Shown: positions 37,146 through 45,535 of the stretch, in pieces
Position numbering within the stretch: the stretch's first letter is position 1
Layout: every line of letters starts with the position of its first letter
Source: Thiomicrorhabdus sp. 6S3-12
Lineage (GTDB): Bacteria > Pseudomonadota > Gammaproteobacteria > Thiomicrospirales > Thiomicrospiraceae
DNA length: 64,000 nucleotides
Direction: 5' to 3'
NCBI RefSeq assembly: GCF_017571475.1
Contig: NZ_JAGETW010000009.1
Span: 1-64,000 of the forward strand
Program-made: the position numbers and the translations under genes
The notes under the pieces: model-generated
What the model was told of the DNA's origin: nothing
Database searches by the model: none
The model's input: only the letters and a program-made list of their open reading frames with translations

Positions 37146-37157
37146 GATTGGCAAATT

Positions 37158-37246
37158 TGTCGGAGTGCCTTTAGACATAGGCTGAGATCGCGCAAGCGGG
37201 ATCCGTTGAACCTGATCTGGTTAGTACCAGCGAAGGGAACAATCGT
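37158..37246 (+). ncRNA. TPP riboswitch (THI element)
   Basis: Contains the conserved blocks of the TPP aptamer: CGGAGTGCC at the 5' side, GGCTGAGAT, and CCGTTGAACCTGATCTGG with TTAGTACCAGCGAAGGGAA at the 3' side. It lies upstream of thiC, about 170 bases before the start codon. Binding of thiamine pyrophosphate should repress the operon. A GATTC/GAATC hairpin at 37319-37332 in the leader may be part of the expression platform; a classic terminator is not obvious, so control could be at translation. Confidence 0.95.
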
Positions 37247-37398
37247 CAGAATGAAACCTTAGTGCTGCATGACTGTTTTCAATTTTTGAAGACAATTCTG
37301 TCAGTGACACCTTAATGAGATTCTTTCGAATCCAAGAGTTTTCATTTCCTCTATTTAGATGTCTATCGAGTTCTTCGCCTAATTAAATTTATTGTTAA

Positions 37399-39357
<1,959 letters not shown>

Positions 39358-40497
39358 ATGAGTGGCCGAGTCGATCGGTCTGTGCAAACAGGGACCAAGC
39401 CTAAAATCGCCATTTTAGGTGCTGGTCTTCTGGGGCGTCTTTTGGCATTTTCGCTGAAAGACGAGATGCAGATTGATCTGTTTGATCAGGATGATGGTCA
39501 AGGGGAGCAGAGTGCCGCTTATCTGGCGGCAGCGATGCTTGCGCCTCTGGCTGAATCAGCGGAAAGCGGTACCGGCATTATGCGGCTCGGAGAGATTGCG
39601 CTGGAACTGTGGCCGAGGATTTTACAGTCTTTACCGAAGAAGGTCTTTTTTCAGCGAAATGGTTCACTTCTGCTCGCCTTCGAACAGGACAGAGCCAGTT
39701 TGGAGACTCTGCAGAGGAACTTGAAAGGGGATAATTACCGGCGGATTGATCGTGCCGAGATTGCCTCTCTCGAACCGGAGATCAATCAGCGTTTTGCGCA
39801 TGCTCTGTTCCTTCCCGAAGAAGGGCAGCTGGACAACCGTCAGTTGCTTGTCGTCCTAGGTGAAGTCTTGCGGGTGCATCCACATATTGACTGGCAAACA
39901 CGCAGCCATGTCCGGCTTTGCGAACAAGGTTTACGGGTAAATGACGAATTCCGAAACGGGTATGACTGGATTGTCGATTGTCGCGGTTTAGGCGCGGCAG
40001 AAGACGCTCAGCCGGATCTGCGCGGTGTTCGCGGGGAAGTGGCGCGGGTGCATGCACCGCAGGTGACTTTGCAGCGCCCGGTGCGTTTAATGCACCCCCG
40101 TTATCCGATCTATATCGCTCCGAAACCGGACCACCATTTCGTCATAGGGGCGACTCAGATTGAAACTCAGGATCGGCGTCAGCCGACGGTGCGTTCTGCG
40201 TTGGAACTGCTCTCTTCCTGTTTTTCGGTGCACAGCGGATTTGCCGAGGCGGAAATTCTGCAGATTCAGTCGGGTCTCAGACCAGCATACCTGCATAACG
40301 AACCGCAGATGCGGGTTAAGGGGAAAATCATCAGTCTTAACGGCCTGTTCCGACACGGTTATCTGCTTTCTCCGGTACTGGTAGACCTGTGTCGCAGCTA
40401 TCTGCTTGGTCAACCGATGGATCAGCGTTATCTGCACGCCTTGCCGGAACTGTTGCAGATTGCTGATGATGCTCATGCTTTTCAGGAGGCGTTATGA
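39358..40497 (+). CDS. thiO: Glycine oxidase ThiO
   Basis: 379 residues of the DAO flavoprotein family. The FAD-binding Rossmann motif IAILGAGLLGRLLA lies at about 18-31. DWIVDCRGLGA and the LRGVRGEVARV block are shared with glycine oxidases, and a late HGYLLSPVL segment matches ThiO. It oxidises glycine to the imine used in thiazole formation. The stop overlaps thiS by 4 bases. The first residues (to about 17) extend beyond many homologues. Confidence 0.92.
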   Translation: MSGRVDRSVQTGTKPKIAILGAGLLGRLLAFSLKDEMQIDLFDQDDGQGEQSAAYLAAAMLAPLAESAESGTGIMRLGEIALELWPRILQSLPKKVFFQRNGSLLLAFEQDRASLETLQRNLKGDNYRRIDRAEIASLEPEINQRFAHALFLPEEGQLDNRQLLVVLGEVLRVHPHIDWQTRSHVRLCEQGLRVNDEFRNGYDWIVDCRGLGAAEDAQPDLRGVRGEVARVHAPQVTLQRPVRLMHPRYPIYIAPKPDHHFVIGATQIETQDRRQPTVRSALELLSSCFSVHSGFAEAEILQIQSGLRPAYLHNEPQMRVKGKIISLNGLFRHGYLLSPVLVDLCRSYLLGQPMDQRYLHALPELLQIADDAHAFQEAL

Positions 40498-40691
40498 AAA
40501 TTGAAATCAACGGTCAAGTAATGGTTCTTGAACAGGCGCAGACTCTGCAGATGGCCTTGTCGCTGTTCGGGGCCAGAATGCCCTATGCGGTCATGCTCAA
40601 CGAGGAGTTTATTCCGAATTCCGAGCACGAACATCGTGTTTTGCATGCCGGAGATAAGGTTGAAGTCGTCACTGCGATTCAAGGTGGCTAA
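40494..40691 (+). CDS. thiS: Sulfur carrier protein ThiS
   Basis: 65 residues with a ubiquitin-like fold and a C-terminal Gly-Gly (VVTAIQGG), the site adenylated by ThiF and thiocarboxylated to carry sulfur to the thiazole. A strong AGGAGG Shine-Dalgarno lies inside the end of thiO. No thiF is present in the window. Confidence 0.95.
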
Positions 40692-40768
40692 AGTGGCTAA
40701 GGCAGCTGAAAAAGAGTTTGTTAACACGGCTCGTAAACGTATCTTTACAGAATTCAGGAATTAAAATT

Positions 40769-41554
40769 ATGTCGGGTTTAAATATTTATGGCACTGAGCT
40801 GAAAAGCCGGATGCTGATCGGCAGTGCGCTCTATCCGTCGCCTAAAGTGATGCAGGAAAGTATTCTGGCATCCGGTGCGGAAGTGGTGACGCTGTCATTG
40901 AGTCGTCAAAATCCGCAACAGGCTGGCGGCGAAAACTTCTGGAACATTATCCGTTCGCTCGGTTTGAAACTCTTGCCGAACACGGCAGGTTGTCACTCGG
41001 TCAAGGAAGCGGTCAATATGGCCAAAATGAGTCGGGAGTTGTTTCAGACCGATTGGGTCAAACTGGAACTGGTTGGCGATGATTTCAATCTGCAACCGGA
41101 CCCGATTGATCTGGTCAAAGCGACGGAAATCCTGTTGAACGACGGCTTTAAAGTCTTGCCTTACTGTACCGACGATCTGGTTATTGCCCGCCATCTGGTC
41201 GAAGCGGGCTGCAAAGTGATTATGCCGTGGGGATCTCCGATTGGCACCGGCAAAGGGCTTTTGAATCCTTATGCGTTGCAGGCCATTCGCGACCGTTTCC
41301 CGGAGGTGACGATCATCGTCGATTCGGGAATCGGTGTACCATCGCATGCGGTTCAGGCGATGGAGATGGGGGTTGATGGAATTCTGTTGAATACTGCCGT
41401 AGCGCATGCACAGCAGCCGCAGAAAATGGCGCAAGCGTTTCGCGGCGCCATTGAAGCGGGCCGTCTTGCGTATGAGGCTGGACCCATGGCGGAACAGCAC
41501 GCCGCCAGCGCTAGCACGCCAACACTGGATTCGCCTTTCTGGCATTCTGCTTAG
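40769..41554 (+). CDS. thiG: Thiazole synthase ThiG
   Basis: 261 residues, a TIM barrel. The Schiff-base lysine is in [10 protein letters not shown]. Other signatures are [15 protein letters not shown], the [14 protein letters not shown] segment and [21 protein letters not shown]. It forms the thiamine thiazole from DXP, ThiS thiocarboxylate and the glycine imine. The ATG at 40769 has AGGA upstream. The last codons (SPFWHSA) carry a 19-base sequence repeated 1.78 kb downstream at 43315, bracketing an inserted cassette array; see the repeat entries. Confidence 0.96.
41534..41552 (+). repeat. Direct repeat, left copy (thiG 3' end)
   Basis: CCTTTCTGGCATTCTGCTT, which ends just inside the thiG stop codon. 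It matches the right copy at 43315-43333 in 18 of 19 bases (T versus G at position 15). The pair flanks the gene-cassette block. Confidence 0.85.
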
Positions 41555-41803
41555 CAAAACAACTTAGTTAAATTTTGCGAGTTAAAAAGCCACTTATCTG
41601 TATTAATAAGTGGCTTTTTTGTTTTTTTATTGGGTTGAAAATGTGTATTATTAATCCAAAATCAATTTTTAGCGATCGACAGGTTTCTATGTCAGATAGC
41701 AGATAACAAAGCAAATTGACTGGAACACATAAATAAGTCTGGCAGAGTGACCGCTCAAACCGGCTAAGCGCCAATAATAGGGCAAATATGCCTGATACTA
41801 AAT
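41555..41803. other. Non-coding segment between thiG and the first gene cassette
   Basis: Apart from the thiG terminator, this stretch is AT-rich and has no convincing gene or attC-like palindrome. It ends at ATGTTAGGT (GTTAGGT at 41804), the recombination-type boundary of the first cassette, so it may contain an attI-like or a secondary insertion site. No integrase gene is present. Confidence 0.5.
41584..41628 (+). terminator. Rho-independent terminator after thiG
   Basis: An AAGCCACTTAT/ATAAGTGGCTT stem (41587-41597 and 41606-41616) followed by a long T-rich tract. It lies inside the block bounded by the direct repeats. Confidence 0.9.
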
Positions 41804-41816
41804 GTTAGGTGTTTAC

Positions 41817-42239
41817 ATGGATTTCGAGTTCATTGTAAAAATGGTATCAACGGTTTCGGTTGCTGTTATAGGCTGGATCGTTGCTCATTACTTTACATCA
41901 CGCCGAGATATGGCAAATAAAAGAAGAGAAATACAAACCCAATACCTTATCGATGCATATCGCAAAATAGATGGCGCTATTGAGCCCGTGCAATTCTCAA
42001 AGGAATGGTGTGAGTCATTACAAAGCTCATTTTCTGATATTCAGCTATTCGGAACTAACCAGCAAATTGAATTAGCGCACGAGTTTGCAGAAATTTTGCT
42101 TACACAAGAAAAAATCAACCAGAACATACTAAAAAGTCTTCTTCATGATTTGCGTGCAGATTTACGAAGTGAATTAGGCTTAGAAAGCACCGATTCAAGT
42201 ATCGGGCATATAAGAATTCATGAAACAAAAAACACCTAA
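41817..42239 (+). CDS. Cassette 1: membrane-anchored hypothetical protein
   Basis: 140 residues from the ATG at 41817 (AGGTG six bases upstream; an ATG at 41802 would span the cassette boundary). One N-terminal membrane helix (about 6-24, VSTVSVAVIGWIVAHYF) is followed by a basic SRRDMANKRREI stretch and a helical cytoplasmic domain. No enzymatic motif is visible and the family is not recognised. The stop codon lies inside the left end of the following attC, typical for a gene cassette. It is more AT-rich than the flanking chromosome. Confidence 0.75.
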   Translation: MDFEFIVKMVSTVSVAVIGWIVAHYFTSRRDMANKRREIQTQYLIDAYRKIDGAIEPVQFSKEWCESLQSSFSDIQLFGTNQQIELAHEFAEILLTQEKINQNILKSLLHDLRADLRSELGLESTDSSIGHIRIHETKNT

Positions 42240-42303
42240 CAAGTCGTTCGTGTGGGACGCTGCGCCGCAATACGGCACGCGCCCCACAGCTTGAGCGTTA
42301 GTC
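42234..42303 (+). mobile_element. attC site 1 (70 bp)
   Basis: It begins ACCTAAC (RYYYAAC core), then AAGTCGTTCGTG, a GTGGG...CCCAC stem with GCGCCG/CGGC inner pairing, and TTGAGC, and ends GTTAGTC at 42297-42303. Layout and sequence match integron attC sites of the CTAACAA...GCGTTAG type. Confidence 0.88.
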
Positions 42304-42318
42304 ATTAAGGAAATATCA

Positions 42319-42663
42319 ATGGAACTTCAGGAATTCATAAAAACAGCATTAACAGAAATCGTAGCTGGTGTTGCAGAGGCAAGCGAACAATCAGAACCTC
42401 TTGGTGGTAGTGTTGGAAGTATGAAACTCTATGGTTATACCAAAGAAAATAAAGTAATCACAAATAATAATGACAAACCTATTGCAATGGTTGAGTTTGA
42501 TATTGCATTGACTGAGGTTTCAGGAACTGATACAAAAGGTGGTATTGGCGTTTATTTGGGTGCTGTTGGGCTTGGCTCGCAAGGCGCATCTCACGGTGAG
42601 ACATCAAGTCACTCACGTATAAAGTTTTCTGTACCTGTTGTATTACCTGATGCAAAAGGCTAA
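42319..42663 (+). CDS. Cassette 2: trypco2-like domain protein
   Basis: 114 residues with AAGGA before the ATG. The N-terminal helix (LQEFIKTALTEIVAGVAEASE) followed by beta strands ending in HSRIKFSVPVVLP fits the trypsin-co-occurring domain 2 family, found with peptidases and NTPases in proposed bacterial conflict systems. Here it stands alone in a cassette, which would normally be expressed from a promoter outside. A glycine-rich segment (GGIGVYLGAVGLGSQGAS) lies near the C terminus. The assignment is by pattern only. Confidence 0.7.
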   Translation: MELQEFIKTALTEIVAGVAEASEQSEPLGGSVGSMKLYGYTKENKVITNNNDKPIAMVEFDIALTEVSGTDTKGGIGVYLGAVGLGSQGASHGETSSHSRIKFSVPVVLPDAKG

Positions 42664-42718
42664 AAAAATACTCAACCCGACCGCGCTAACGCGCGGTCGG
42701 TTAGCTTAAATGTTAGAG
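42658..42718 (+). mobile_element. attC site 2 (about 61 bp, degenerate left core)
   Basis: A perfect 10-bp stem CCGACCGCGC/GCGCGGTCGG around TAAC, then TTAGCTTAAAT and GTTAGAG at 42712-42718. The left core reads GGCTAAA instead of RYYYAAC, although ACTCAAC at 42670 also fits. The stop codon of cassette 2 lies inside it. Confidence 0.82.
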
Positions 42719-43197
42719 TGACGGGAATCACATTGGAAACAGAAGTTATTGAAGAGCAAGCAGCAAAAGCAGTCGGCTTAATTCTATTTGAATTTACTCG
42801 ACTAGACTCAAACCTTGGACTTTTTGTTGTATGGACCAATGAAGGGCAAAATCTAAAGCATCTAACTTCAAAATTTGAAGGAAAAGGATTTAGTGACCGC
42901 CTAAAATTCATTGAAAACCTTGCACAGAAGAAATTCGATATTGGTTCAGTAGAACTTAATAAATACAATAATTGGCTTAAGAGTGCTCATGAAATCAGAG
43001 ATATTAGAAATAATCTTGTACACGGCCGTTATGGGTTTATTCCACAAACTGGGCATGTTGCAAACGTAGTTGGTCTGCCAACTTCTTCAGAACAAAGTGA
43101 AACACGTTACACAATCAAAGAACTTAATAATATTATCAAACGTATAAAAGAATTAAGTAAAAGGATGCATGAATTAAGATTTGAGCATCCAATTTAG
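42718..43197 (+). CDS. Cassette 3: HEPN-like protein (R-x4-H motif)
   Basis: 159 residues starting at GTG right after the cassette junction; a TTG at 42733 is the alternative. It is mostly helical and charged. The segment HEIRDIRNNLVHGRYG contains RNNLVH, the R-x4-H motif of HEPN proteins, many of which are RNases in toxin or defence systems. The Arg and His are in the right arrangement but the rest is not confidently alignable. It is AT-rich relative to the chromosome. Confidence 0.68.
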   Translation: MTGITLETEVIEEQAAKAVGLILFEFTRLDSNLGLFVVWTNEGQNLKHLTSKFEGKGFSDRLKFIENLAQKKFDIGSVELNKYNNWLKSAHEIRDIRNNLVHGRYGFIPQTGHVANVVGLPTSSEQSETRYTIKELNNIIKRIKELSKRMHELRFEHPI

Positions 43198-43201
43198 TTT
43201 A

Positions 43202-43263
43202 CTCTAACAATTCACTCAACCCGACCGCGCTAAAGTACGGCTGGTTAAGCTTAAACGTTAGAT
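43202..43263 (+). mobile_element. attC site 3 (about 62 bp)
   Basis: CTCTAACAATTCACTCAACC on the left, a CCGACCGCGC arm with imperfect partner GTACGGCTGG, then TTAAGCTTAAAC and GTTAGAT at 43257-43263. It is closely related to attC site 2 and to classical attC sites. Confidence 0.85.
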
Positions 43264-43274
43264 TCCACAAATGT

Positions 43275-43301
43275 GGGAAAAGGGGACGCTACCCTTTTCC
43301 C
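43275..43301. repeat. Perfect 10-bp hairpin after the last attC
   Basis: GGGAAAAGGG, spacer GACGCTA, CCCTTTTCCC. It resembles GGGGACGCTACCCTTTT-type palindromes I associate with REP-like elements, but this is not proven here. It sits between the last attC and the right direct repeat. Confidence 0.6.
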
Positions 43302-43314
43302 AATCCTCGAGTTA

Positions 43315-43333
43315 CCTTTCTGGCATTCGGCTT
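43315..43333 (+). repeat. Direct repeat, right copy (thiG 3' end)
   Basis: CCTTTCTGGCATTCGGCTT, 18/19 identical to 41534-41552. It is not in a gene here. It bounds the cassette block on the right, 33 bases before the stop of the convergent diguanylate cyclase gene. Confidence 0.85.
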
Positions 43334-43365
43334 GAAGTAAATGCGGATCAGTCAAATCCATATCA

Positions 43366-44715
43366 TCAGGTATTCTCGGTCGTTGATTGCTTGTATGCGA
43401 CAGCCTGATTTCGGCCCTGATTTTTTGCCGTATACAGGGCCTGGTCGGCTTGCAGCAGAATTTCTTCTAGCGAGTATTGTCCCGGAGGCGTTTCGGCAAC
43501 ACCGAAGCTGGCGGTAAAGTGAAGGGTTTGCCGGTTGCGTATCAGCTCGGAGTCAGCGACGGAAAGACGTAATTTTTCGGCGACATGCAGTGCGCCGTTC
43601 AGGTCGGTTTGCGGGAGCACAATGGCAAATTCTTCACCGCCAAGTCTCCCGATCAGGTCACAAGCGCGACAGGAGTTTTTGAGTGTCTTGGCAAAAGTCT
43701 GCAATACCAGATCGCCTGTCGCGTGTCCGTAAGTGTCGTTGATATTTTTGAAATGGTCGATATCGATCATGATAATCGACGTTGCGGTTTGCTGACGAAC
43801 CGCGTTCTTTAATTCCTGCTCAGCCAGCTCAAAGAAAGCTCTGCGGGTTTTGACATTGGTTAAGACATCGGTATAGGCCAGCATCTCGGCCGCTTCTTTC
43901 GCTGCGAACAGCTCATGTGTCCTTTCCTGAACCTTATCATCCAGTTCTTTGTTCAGGACCTTCAAAGCGGCCTGATACTCGTTCACGCTATGGATCATCT
44001 GGTTATAGCTGTCTTTCAGCAAGAGGATTTCATTATTGTCCGACCAGGGGATATCAAGCGTAATCGGGTGAGGTTGATTGCTATCCTGCTGTTTGATTTT
44101 ACGGGTAAATTCATTCAGCGGCTTACCAAGGTAGCGTTTAATGAAGTAAAAAATGATAAACCACAGCGCCAGCGTTTTGATGACCGAGTTGATCAGGATA
44201 AGAAAAAAACCGTATTTAACGCGTTCAAAAACCAGCCGCTCGTTTGAGTAAATGGTGACCTCTCCAAGCGGTTGAGGATTTTTAAATGCGGGTCCCTGAT
44301 AGGTAATCGGAAAGGTATAACCAAAGAGCGCATCGGCTCCCAAACCGGTTTCGGTGGCTTGTCCGGGTTTGCCGTCGGTATCGAAGTAGGCAGGGTGACT
44401 GTCTTTGTCCAAAATGGAGCCGATTTTATAATCCATTTTGTGGTCAAGTGATTTGACTTCAATGCCGACCACAATCGGACTGTTGTAAACGCCGCGTAAA
44501 ATCGATTGCAGCAACTCCTGATTATAGGTCCAAACGGAGTCGCTGATTCCCTGTCCGAAGGTCGTCGGTAACAGCTGGATCTCTTGATAAAAACTTTCTT
44601 TGGTGTTTTCGTATTCCTTGTACAACTGAACCACGGTCACGATAACGGCTACAAGAAAATAGAAGCCGAAAATGACCGTCAGAAGATGCAGTGCAATGGA
44701 GTGACGAAATGACAT
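43366..44715 (-). CDS. Membrane diguanylate cyclase (GGDEF domain)
   Basis: 449 residues. Membrane helices at about 11-30 and 170-190 flank a periplasmic sensor region. A HAMP-like linker (FIKRYLGKPLNEFTRKI) and a coiled coil (about 240-270) lead to the GGDEF domain with an active GGEEF site and the RxxD inhibitory site (RACD) five residues before it. It should make cyclic di-GMP. It lies 28 bases after a periplasmic binding-protein gene on the same strand, so the two probably form a sensor pair. Confidence 0.93.
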   Translation of the reverse strand: MSFRHSIALHLLTVIFGFYFLVAVIVTVVQLYKEYENTKESFYQEIQLLPTTFGQGISDSVWTYNQELLQSILRGVYNSPIVVGIEVKSLDHKMDYKIGSILDKDSHPAYFDTDGKPGQATETGLGADALFGYTFPITYQGPAFKNPQPLGEVTIYSNERLVFERVKYGFFLILINSVIKTLALWFIIFYFIKRYLGKPLNEFTRKIKQQDSNQPHPITLDIPWSDNNEILLLKDSYNQMIHSVNEYQAALKVLNKELDDKVQERTHELFAAKEAAEMLAYTDVLTNVKTRRAFFELAEQELKNAVRQQTATSIIMIDIDHFKNINDTYGHATGDLVLQTFAKTLKNSCRACDLIGRLGGEEFAIVLPQTDLNGALHVAEKLRLSVADSELIRNRQTLHFTASFGVAETPPGQYSLEEILLQADQALYTAKNQGRNQAVAYKQSTTENT

Positions 44716-44743
44716 GGGCGTTTAGGTGACTTTCATACCGGTT

Positions 44744-45535
44744 TTATGGTTTGGCTTTCCAATCCTGTATTCCGTAGTTCGAGAGTATTTTCTGTAACTC
44801 TCCCGTCTGGCGCATGTTTTCAATTTCGTCGGATAAAATCTGCGCATAGATTTTCGATTTTTCGTTTGCCGGGGAGAAACCGGTGAAGACATCGATAACA
44901 ACAGGGGTGGTGCCGGAAACGCTGATCAGGTCCGATTTGCCCATTTGTTGCAGTTTGTATTCCAAAACGCTCTTATCTTCGATAACGGTGGTCAGACGAC
45001 CGGCCAACAGCATCTCAAGCAATCTTTCCAATGGTTTTTCGCCGGTGATTTCCAATACGTTGTCAGGATGTTGATTGATGTAGTCCATCAGTTCAGGTTC
45101 TACATAGTCATAGCCCTTAATAACACCGATCATTTTTGCCTGTTTCAGCGAGTCGGTTCCGGTGTAGCGCCAGGTACTGTCTTTTAAGCTGAAAAAAGTG
45201 GTATTGCTGATGCCTTGCACTGTTGGAGGCATTATAAAGTCGGGTGCTTCTTCTCGAAAACAGGCTTCGGTTGCATCCAGTTTCCCTTCTCTGACAAGAG
45301 TCAGGCCGCGAGAATAAGAAACTTCAACAAACTCGACTTTATGGCCGTGTTTTTCCATGGCGGCAACCAGCATGTCGCCCAGGTAGCCAACCTTGCCATT
45401 ATTCTGGGACGGAATACAGTCATAGGGACACCATTCATCCGTAGCGACTCTTAAGGTGTCGGCAGATGCCGAAAGAGGCAGAGCCAAGGCCAGAGCGAAA
45501 ATAGAGATGTATTTTTTTAAGCAGTGCGTTTGCAT
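44744..45535 (-). CDS. Periplasmic solute-binding protein (family 3 type)
   Basis: 263 residues: a signal peptide (cleavage near LSASA-DT, about residue 25) and an amino-acid-type binding fold (LRVATDEWCPYDCIPSQN, GYLGDMLVAAMEKHGHKV, KLDATEACF). No transporter genes are nearby. It precedes a diguanylate cyclase gene by 28 bases, so it may bind a ligand and present it to that sensor rather than feed a transporter. Its ligand is unknown. The two cysteines in CPYDC may form a disulfide. Confidence 0.88.
   Translation of the reverse strand: MQTHCLKKYISIFALALALPLSASADTLRVATDEWCPYDCIPSQNNGKVGYLGDMLVAAMEKHGHKVEFVEVSYSRGLTLVREGKLDATEACFREEAPDFIMPPTVQGISNTTFFSLKDSTWRYTGTDSLKQAKMIGVIKGYDYVEPELMDYINQHPDNVLEITGEKPLERLLEMLLAGRLTTVIEDKSVLEYKLQQMGKSDLISVSGTTPVVIDVFTGFSPANEKSKIYAQILSDEIENMRQTGELQKILSNYGIQDWKAKP

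Follow-up and report, generated by a model that had tools for sequence, protein, structure and literature searches.

According to the excerpts of PMC2297512, the integron-bearing island SGI1 is integrated in the final 18 bp of thdF, flanked by 18-bp repeats. Clusters of attC cassettes without an integrase may arise, among other origins proposed in the excerpts of PMC8618304, when intI is lost or when a rearrangement moves the cassettes away from it. In Xanthomonas, a sedentary chromosomal integron is located behind ilvD, many intI genes are inactivated, and clusters of attC sites lacking integron-integrases (CALINs) occur at other loci (PMC12444791, excerpts). Here we describe an insert of 1,781 bp at the 3′ end of thiG, the thiazole synthase gene for vitamin B1, in the sulfur bacterium Thiomicrorhabdus sp. 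6S3-12. The window, that is, the whole 64-kb stretch of DNA that was analysed, is contig C19 of the host genome (G000; 2.55 Mb, 19 contigs, completeness rated 100%). The insert carries an integron recombination site, attI, and three gene cassettes, and is bordered by two copies of a 19-bp thiG end.

The insert is like SGI1 in being an integron-carrying insertion at the end of a housekeeping gene with short direct repeats; in contrast, SGI1 has its own integrase, whereas the insert measures 1.8 kb, encodes no recombinase, carries a chromosomal-integron attI and targets thiG (PMC2297512, excerpts). With the integrase-less clusters it shares attC cassettes and a genome without an integron integrase over the cut-off, but it differs from them in having attI with upstream DNA, visible borders and an empty site (PMC8618304, excerpts). 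The Xanthomonas integron is similar in that the platform lies just behind a housekeeping gene and cassette clusters are found elsewhere; however, Xanthomonas intI is at one ancestral locus, with two exceptions, whereas attI of Thiomicrorhabdus is at many loci, here with a 19-bp footprint (PMC12444791, excerpts). The open-licence literature yielded no report of thiG as an integration site, the thiG passages found in its excerpts concerning thiamine genes, and nothing on Thiomicrorhabdus integrons. The terms “orphan attI” and “solitary attI” did not appear among its top-ranked matches.

The closest of the 58 genomes searched, that of the sister species G020 (ThiG 99% identical), retains the empty site. 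There, thiG runs straight into the DNA of a convergent GGDEF (diguanylate cyclase) gene, which in the window lies at 43366..44715 on the minus strand, and one copy of the 19-mer is present. Window positions 39248-41552 and 43315-44832 align to one continuous G020 stretch, overlapping by exactly 19 bp; the alignment thereby shows the empty site and the insertion itself, whose borders it fixes to within the repeat. The single G020 copy is identical to the downstream copy in the window, TGA and the next bases included. Since G020 holds only this version, 1,781 bp were added, and copy 2 (43315..43333, plus strand, attR-like; stop TGA at 43333-43335) is the original thiG 3′ end, while copy 1 (41534..41552, plus strand, attL-like), which differs from the G020 copy, is a replacement. 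The insert is the derived state, because G014 and G024 also have thiG followed directly by DNA of the GGDEF gene. The earlier note had inferred that the integrase-less cassettes came in as a block at the thiG 3′ end, and had proposed looking among relatives for an empty site with one repeat copy; G020 provides such a site and supports entry there, with replacement of that end.

An insertion older than the split from G020, with precise loss from G020 by recombination between the copies, would agree with the downstream version kept there, as such a deletion could leave it, and deletion between short direct repeats is common. However, this history needs one extra event, G014 and G024 are empty too, and it bears on the timing only, leaving the insertion event itself unchanged. 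We regard it as improbable.

The earlier note's observation that the 19-base thiG end recurs at 43315 with 18 of 19 bases identical was confirmed. The copies differ by one mismatch, and the genome contains no further copy at up to 2 mismatches, which also answers the note's suggestion to look for others. Direct repeats of 18/19 spaced up to 5 kb apart form six pairs in the 64-kb window: three in one tandem array near the window start, the pair in attC2/attC3, the pair 56457/57300, and the thiG pair. In the thiG frame, copy 1 reads H-S-A-TAG (TCT GCT TAG) and copy 2 H-S-A-TGA (TCG GCT TGA), and the coding sequence and a stop are preserved on both sides of the insert. The thiG gene itself occupies 40769..41554 on the plus strand (Pfam), its last codons and TAG stop being the replacement 3′ end. 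In 500-bp windows, the G+C content was 0.35-0.43 in the insert and 0.41-0.57 in the flanks.

The attI site lies at 41771..41808 on the plus strand and ends in GGCAAATATGCCTGATACTAAATGTTAG. Window positions 41771-41810 matched stretches in 12 of 20 fetched loci, with 81-97% identity over 24-40 bp, and at five of those loci (L071, L072, L073, L082 and L089) a whole or split intI adjoins the attI-like stretch. The same site thus adjoins intI in other Thiomicrorhabdus. A pattern made for attI is present at 41781-41807 with 0 mismatches, and with up to 3 mismatches it found 43 sites in 21 of the 32 genomes of the genus, up to 4 per genome; the reversed control pattern gave 0 matches in the 32 genomes. 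Upstream of attI, the DNA at 41640..41770 corresponds, in an alignment judged by eye, to the region that immediately precedes intI where the integron is intact, with the coding part gone. No integron integrase exceeded the TIGR02249 cut-off in the host genome, while IntI did so in 12 of the 32 genomes.

Because attI and DNA resembling the upstream region of intI are present, the block is an integron without intI and not a bare cassette cluster; it is an integron remnant and not a complete integron. The insert has at least two attC sites and no integrase nearby, as CALINs do. In the strict sense, a CALIN has no integron platform (attI) left, whereas attI is present here. The earlier note had described an integrase-less cassette array and had advised a search for intI in the rest of the genome. 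The absence of an integrase over the family cut-off held genome-wide; the description as a bare cassette cluster did not, since the note had overlooked attI.

All three cassettes lie on the plus strand. The gene of cassette 1 (41817..42239) encodes 140 aa and is followed by attC1 (42234..42303), a long hairpin. The gene of cassette 2 (42319..42663) encodes 114 aa and has a relative in an array of T. chilensis (37% identity, E 1.7e-17); its site is attC2 (42658..42718). The gene of cassette 3 (42718..43197) encodes 159 aa from a GTG start and precedes attC3 (43202..43263). None of the cassette proteins matched a family above a cut-off. The sites were scored with a covariance model built from 33 sites of the genus, 30 from relatives and 3 from an array on contig C16 of the host, none coming from the window. 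The 33 sites were chosen by blast similarity to attC2 and attC3 of the window, so the result speaks for family membership and not for unbiased discovery. Standard pairs filled 86.7% of cells in the model against a shuffle mean of 83.3% (0 of 500 shuffles as high) and at most 35.1% when the pairing partners were slid; the number of further pair types did not stand out, 432 of 500 shuffles reaching as many. With this model, attC2 scored 68.5 bits (E 9.1e-18) and attC3 67 bits (E 2.6e-17), while attC1 was weak (17 bits, E 0.07). Among 150 scored of 708 first-look candidates in the genome, attC2, attC3 and four C16 sites reached E ≤0.001. The z-scores of single-strand folding were −2.66 for attC1, −4.96 for attC2 and −2.01 for attC3. 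Of the three attC-like sites in the earlier note, which had itself proposed a covariance-model search, those at 42658 and 43202 thus scored strongly and that at 42234 weakly.

Both ends of the insert indicate a foreign origin. The first 100 bp after copy 1 were scored against the 100 bp after thiG in 29 relatives. The flank of G025 scored 31 and that of G009 scored 17, whereas the other 27 flanks did not exceed 10, and 281 control windows taken from these loci stayed at or below 11. These scores suggest that the left end (41553..41628, plus strand), which includes an intrinsic terminator with its stem at 41584-41621, is a thiG 3′ flank from another lineage of Thiomicrorhabdus. The thiG of T. 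marina has CCTTTCTGGCATTC and the TAG stop in common with copy 1, and the first part is also found in copy 2. At the right end there is a solo hairpin (43273..43302, with the copies below counted for 43275-43298). In T. marina, hairpins of this type flank a gene for a Y1 (IS200-like) transposase. The hairpin is single-copy in the host genome at up to 3 mismatches; in the four genomes searched, T. marina has 7 copies, two of which flank the transposase gene, G014 has 1, and G020 has 0.

These ends would also be expected if a linear fragment from a relative with a thiG-linked integron had entered by transformation, through a short-identity crossover on the left and illegitimate joining on the right. 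The left end resembles a genuine thiG 3′ flank with its terminator, the hairpin seen seven times in T. marina and once here is what one piece of a foreign chromosome should bring, and an integron behind thiG does exist in G023, with attI 306 bp past the thiG stop. Transformation stays a real rival because both ends look foreign-chromosomal and because of this G023 attI. The divergence from G020 tells against it. Leaving out the insert, identity to G020 was 90.6% over 6,602 columns (0.68-1.00 in 100-bp bins), and the bins beside the junction, at 0.87-0.93, showed no drop. The stretch that matches G020 without a difference and terminates within the repeat measures 29 bp; thus no long foreign piece of thiG came in. 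The host thiG diverges from that of G020 normally until 29 bp before the copies differ, and a homologous arm would have been at most about 29 bp. In addition, the right joint would have had to land no more than 19 bp from the left one by coincidence, without loss. We consider transformation possible, although rather unlikely.

The left end also bears on a duplication of the target, in which transposition or a filled-in staggered break would have produced the 19-bp repeat and copy 1 would later have changed by one base. The identity of 18/19 is in keeping with this, and a single change fits a divergence from G020 of roughly 9%. On the other hand, the insert has no terminal inverted repeats by eye and no transposase-sized open reading frame (ORF), 19 bp is outside the usual lengths of target duplications, and the likeness of its first bases to a thiG flank is left unaccounted for. 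We judge such a duplication very improbable.

The explanation that we favor, at about even confidence, is that conservative site-specific recombination placed the 1,781-bp remnant of attI and three cassettes in the terminal 19 bp of thiG, much as SGI1 is placed at thdF. A site-specific element fits because the 3′ end was replaced in frame, a terminator was carried along, the direct repeat is short, and the target remained intact. The enzyme would most likely be a tyrosine recombinase, which may have worked in trans or been lost afterwards, with strand exchange presumably within the shared CCTTTCTGGCATTC. The insert would have brought the substitute thiG 3′ end (TCT GCT TAG) and the terminator from the corresponding locus of an earlier Thiomicrorhabdus host; the original end (TCG GCT TGA) would have been displaced to the far side. 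The recombinase, a circular intermediate, and the loss of intI before insertion are inferred. Gene-end repeats at both borders and a one-copy empty site are features of an integrative element of gene 3′ ends; the recombinase that such an element encodes is absent from the insert.

Several results weigh against site-specific recombination. The region 41553-43314 contains no ORF longer than 159 aa, so the insert itself encodes no recombinase, and none of the four Phage_integrase matches in the genome appears specific for thiG. Two of these are XerD and XerC, both over NCBIfam cut-offs, and two are tRNA-linked integrases. A second thiG end was found in none of 20 relatives (15-mers with up to 1 mismatch, up to 19.7 kb; 21 stretches were fetched, L103 being left out as too short, and 20 had a readable thiG); five of the 20 had only 21-mers with 5-6 mismatches to the thiG end. 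Likewise, none of 32 thiG loci from a scan of the Genome Taxonomy Database (GTDB), about 10 of them of the same genus, had a second end (16-mers with up to 1 mismatch, 0.1-10 kb). No free form was seen, as 0 viral contigs had the repeat pattern and searches of phages, plasmids and E. coli genomes gave no match to the insert. Finally, flank checks gave no clear second duplication at 33 attI loci without full intI, the window included (the 10 loci with whole or split intI were left out, and 7 of the 33 have less than 1.3 kb behind attI).

Individual candidates were also considered. The two tRNA-linked integrases were assessed by location: the one on C16 adjoins a tRNA-like 3′ end (by eye; the tRNA is absent from the ARAGORN list), the one on C13 lies 136 bp behind tRNA-Ser, and neither location points to thiG. 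A tblastn search with five recombinases over 22 stretches that lie around or behind thiG in relatives gave one match, in T. marina, which adjoins tRNA-Leu at 17.7 kb from thiG. A lone viral-contig match to a looser thiG-end pattern was attributed to chance.

The earlier note had left the choice between a tyrosine recombinase and an unusual cassette capture. The former fits, though none was found for the thiG site; the latter, if driven by IntI, is not supported. Cutting by IntI requires a GWT triplet (G, A or T, T), which is absent from both copies on both strands, and an IntI reaction is therefore unlikely; moreover, attI moved in together with the cassettes. The same lack tells against a foreign IntI having placed the cassettes at a non-classical genomic attG site. 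An attG insertion is not known to leave a 19-bp duplication, and here attI and a thiG-like flank arrived along with the cassettes. Although such insertions are known (Loot et al. 2024, as reported in the excerpts of PMC12444791), we consider this origin extremely improbable.

Recombination at the thiG end can be set beside the distribution of attI in the genus. Upstream of the 43 attI sites (loci L071-L089 and L195-L223), tblastn with one IntI detected 8 full-length genes, 2 split genes, 4 fragments, and nothing at 29; L074 and L203 have remnants below the tblastn threshold, by eye. The nearest upstream gene other than intI (at least 120 aa) points towards attI in 35 of 43 cases, and 22 of the 29 sites without detected intI sit 76-586 bp behind a gene of the same orientation. 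Selection against breaking promoters could produce the same bias. Several loci have the same upstream gene, such as ilvC (L076, L077) and lspA (L079, L204, L223), among others; the 43 sites are thus not 43 independent events. At the ilvC locus, the downstream DNA is variable, with no evident duplication. Flanking repeats were also checked at 13 loci and the window, again without a clear duplication, and the thiG case stands alone so far. The repeats scoring 14-32 at L079, L080, L085, L196, L197, L201, L203, L204, L213, L215, L221 and L223 were, by eye, terminators, common palindromes, a module that is repeated, or chance matches. The full sequences of L196, L197 and L203 were inspected, and in a comparison of L197 with 7 relatives its terminator proved to be common.

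Among 30 thiG loci, each from a different genome, 2 have attI behind the gene, one being that of the host. At the other, L207 (G023:C142), the contig ends 105 bp past attI. G023 is a distant species of the genus, and its nearest relative in the thiG tree, G017, has no attI there; G023 may thus show a second integron that reached thiG independently. At L196 (G026:1258300-1270300), the terminator and the left part of the attI module recur downstream of the array, as if two modules were in tandem. At L076, L077, L082, L083, L197, L207 and L210, across species, attI is followed by a short inverted repeat (e.g. GAGCCGACCGCAGGCGGTCGGCTC) and then TAACGGGGTGGCG, perhaps a gene-less cassette. The host itself has a second intI-less array (L070; C16:165000-180000, minus strand) with 4 attC sites and one TIR-domain cassette protein. 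It begins directly behind a phage-type integrase with an Arm-DNA-bind_3 domain; between integrase and array lies a sequence that resembles attI but diverges too far to fit the pattern, and a tRNA-like 3′ end lies upstream (both by eye).

The thi operon comprises, by Pfam, consecutive genes for ThiC, a DAO-family oxidoreductase taken as ThiO, ThiS, and ThiG (E 1e-100). The identity of ThiG to that of named relatives is 90% for T. heinhorstiae, 85% for T. marina and T. cannonii, and 82% for T. chilensis, which assigns the host to Thiomicrorhabdus. A thiamine pyrophosphate (TPP) riboswitch is located upstream of the operon at 37151-37255, and the terminator borne by the insert would stop the riboswitch-led transcript ahead of the cassettes. 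A search of Rfam over 38-47 kb gave two sub-threshold matches only, neither relevant.

The arrival of sedentary chromosomal integrons at new positions can seldom be observed, since insertions are mostly old. In this case the empty site survives in a close relative, the borders are known to the precision of the 19-bp repeat, and one can guess the donor lineage. The thiG locus offers a concrete set of attL, attR and attB in a genus where attI sites outnumber the integrase genes found. A broader reading, which we hold to be doubtful, is that the integron platform itself travels: intI-less attI-cassette units would spread over the chromosome by 3′-end-directed recombination, mostly behind gene 3′ ends and in one orientation, and the 19-bp thiG duplication would be a fresh footprint. 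If this is true, the travelling platform would offer “sedentary” integrons a way to new loci.

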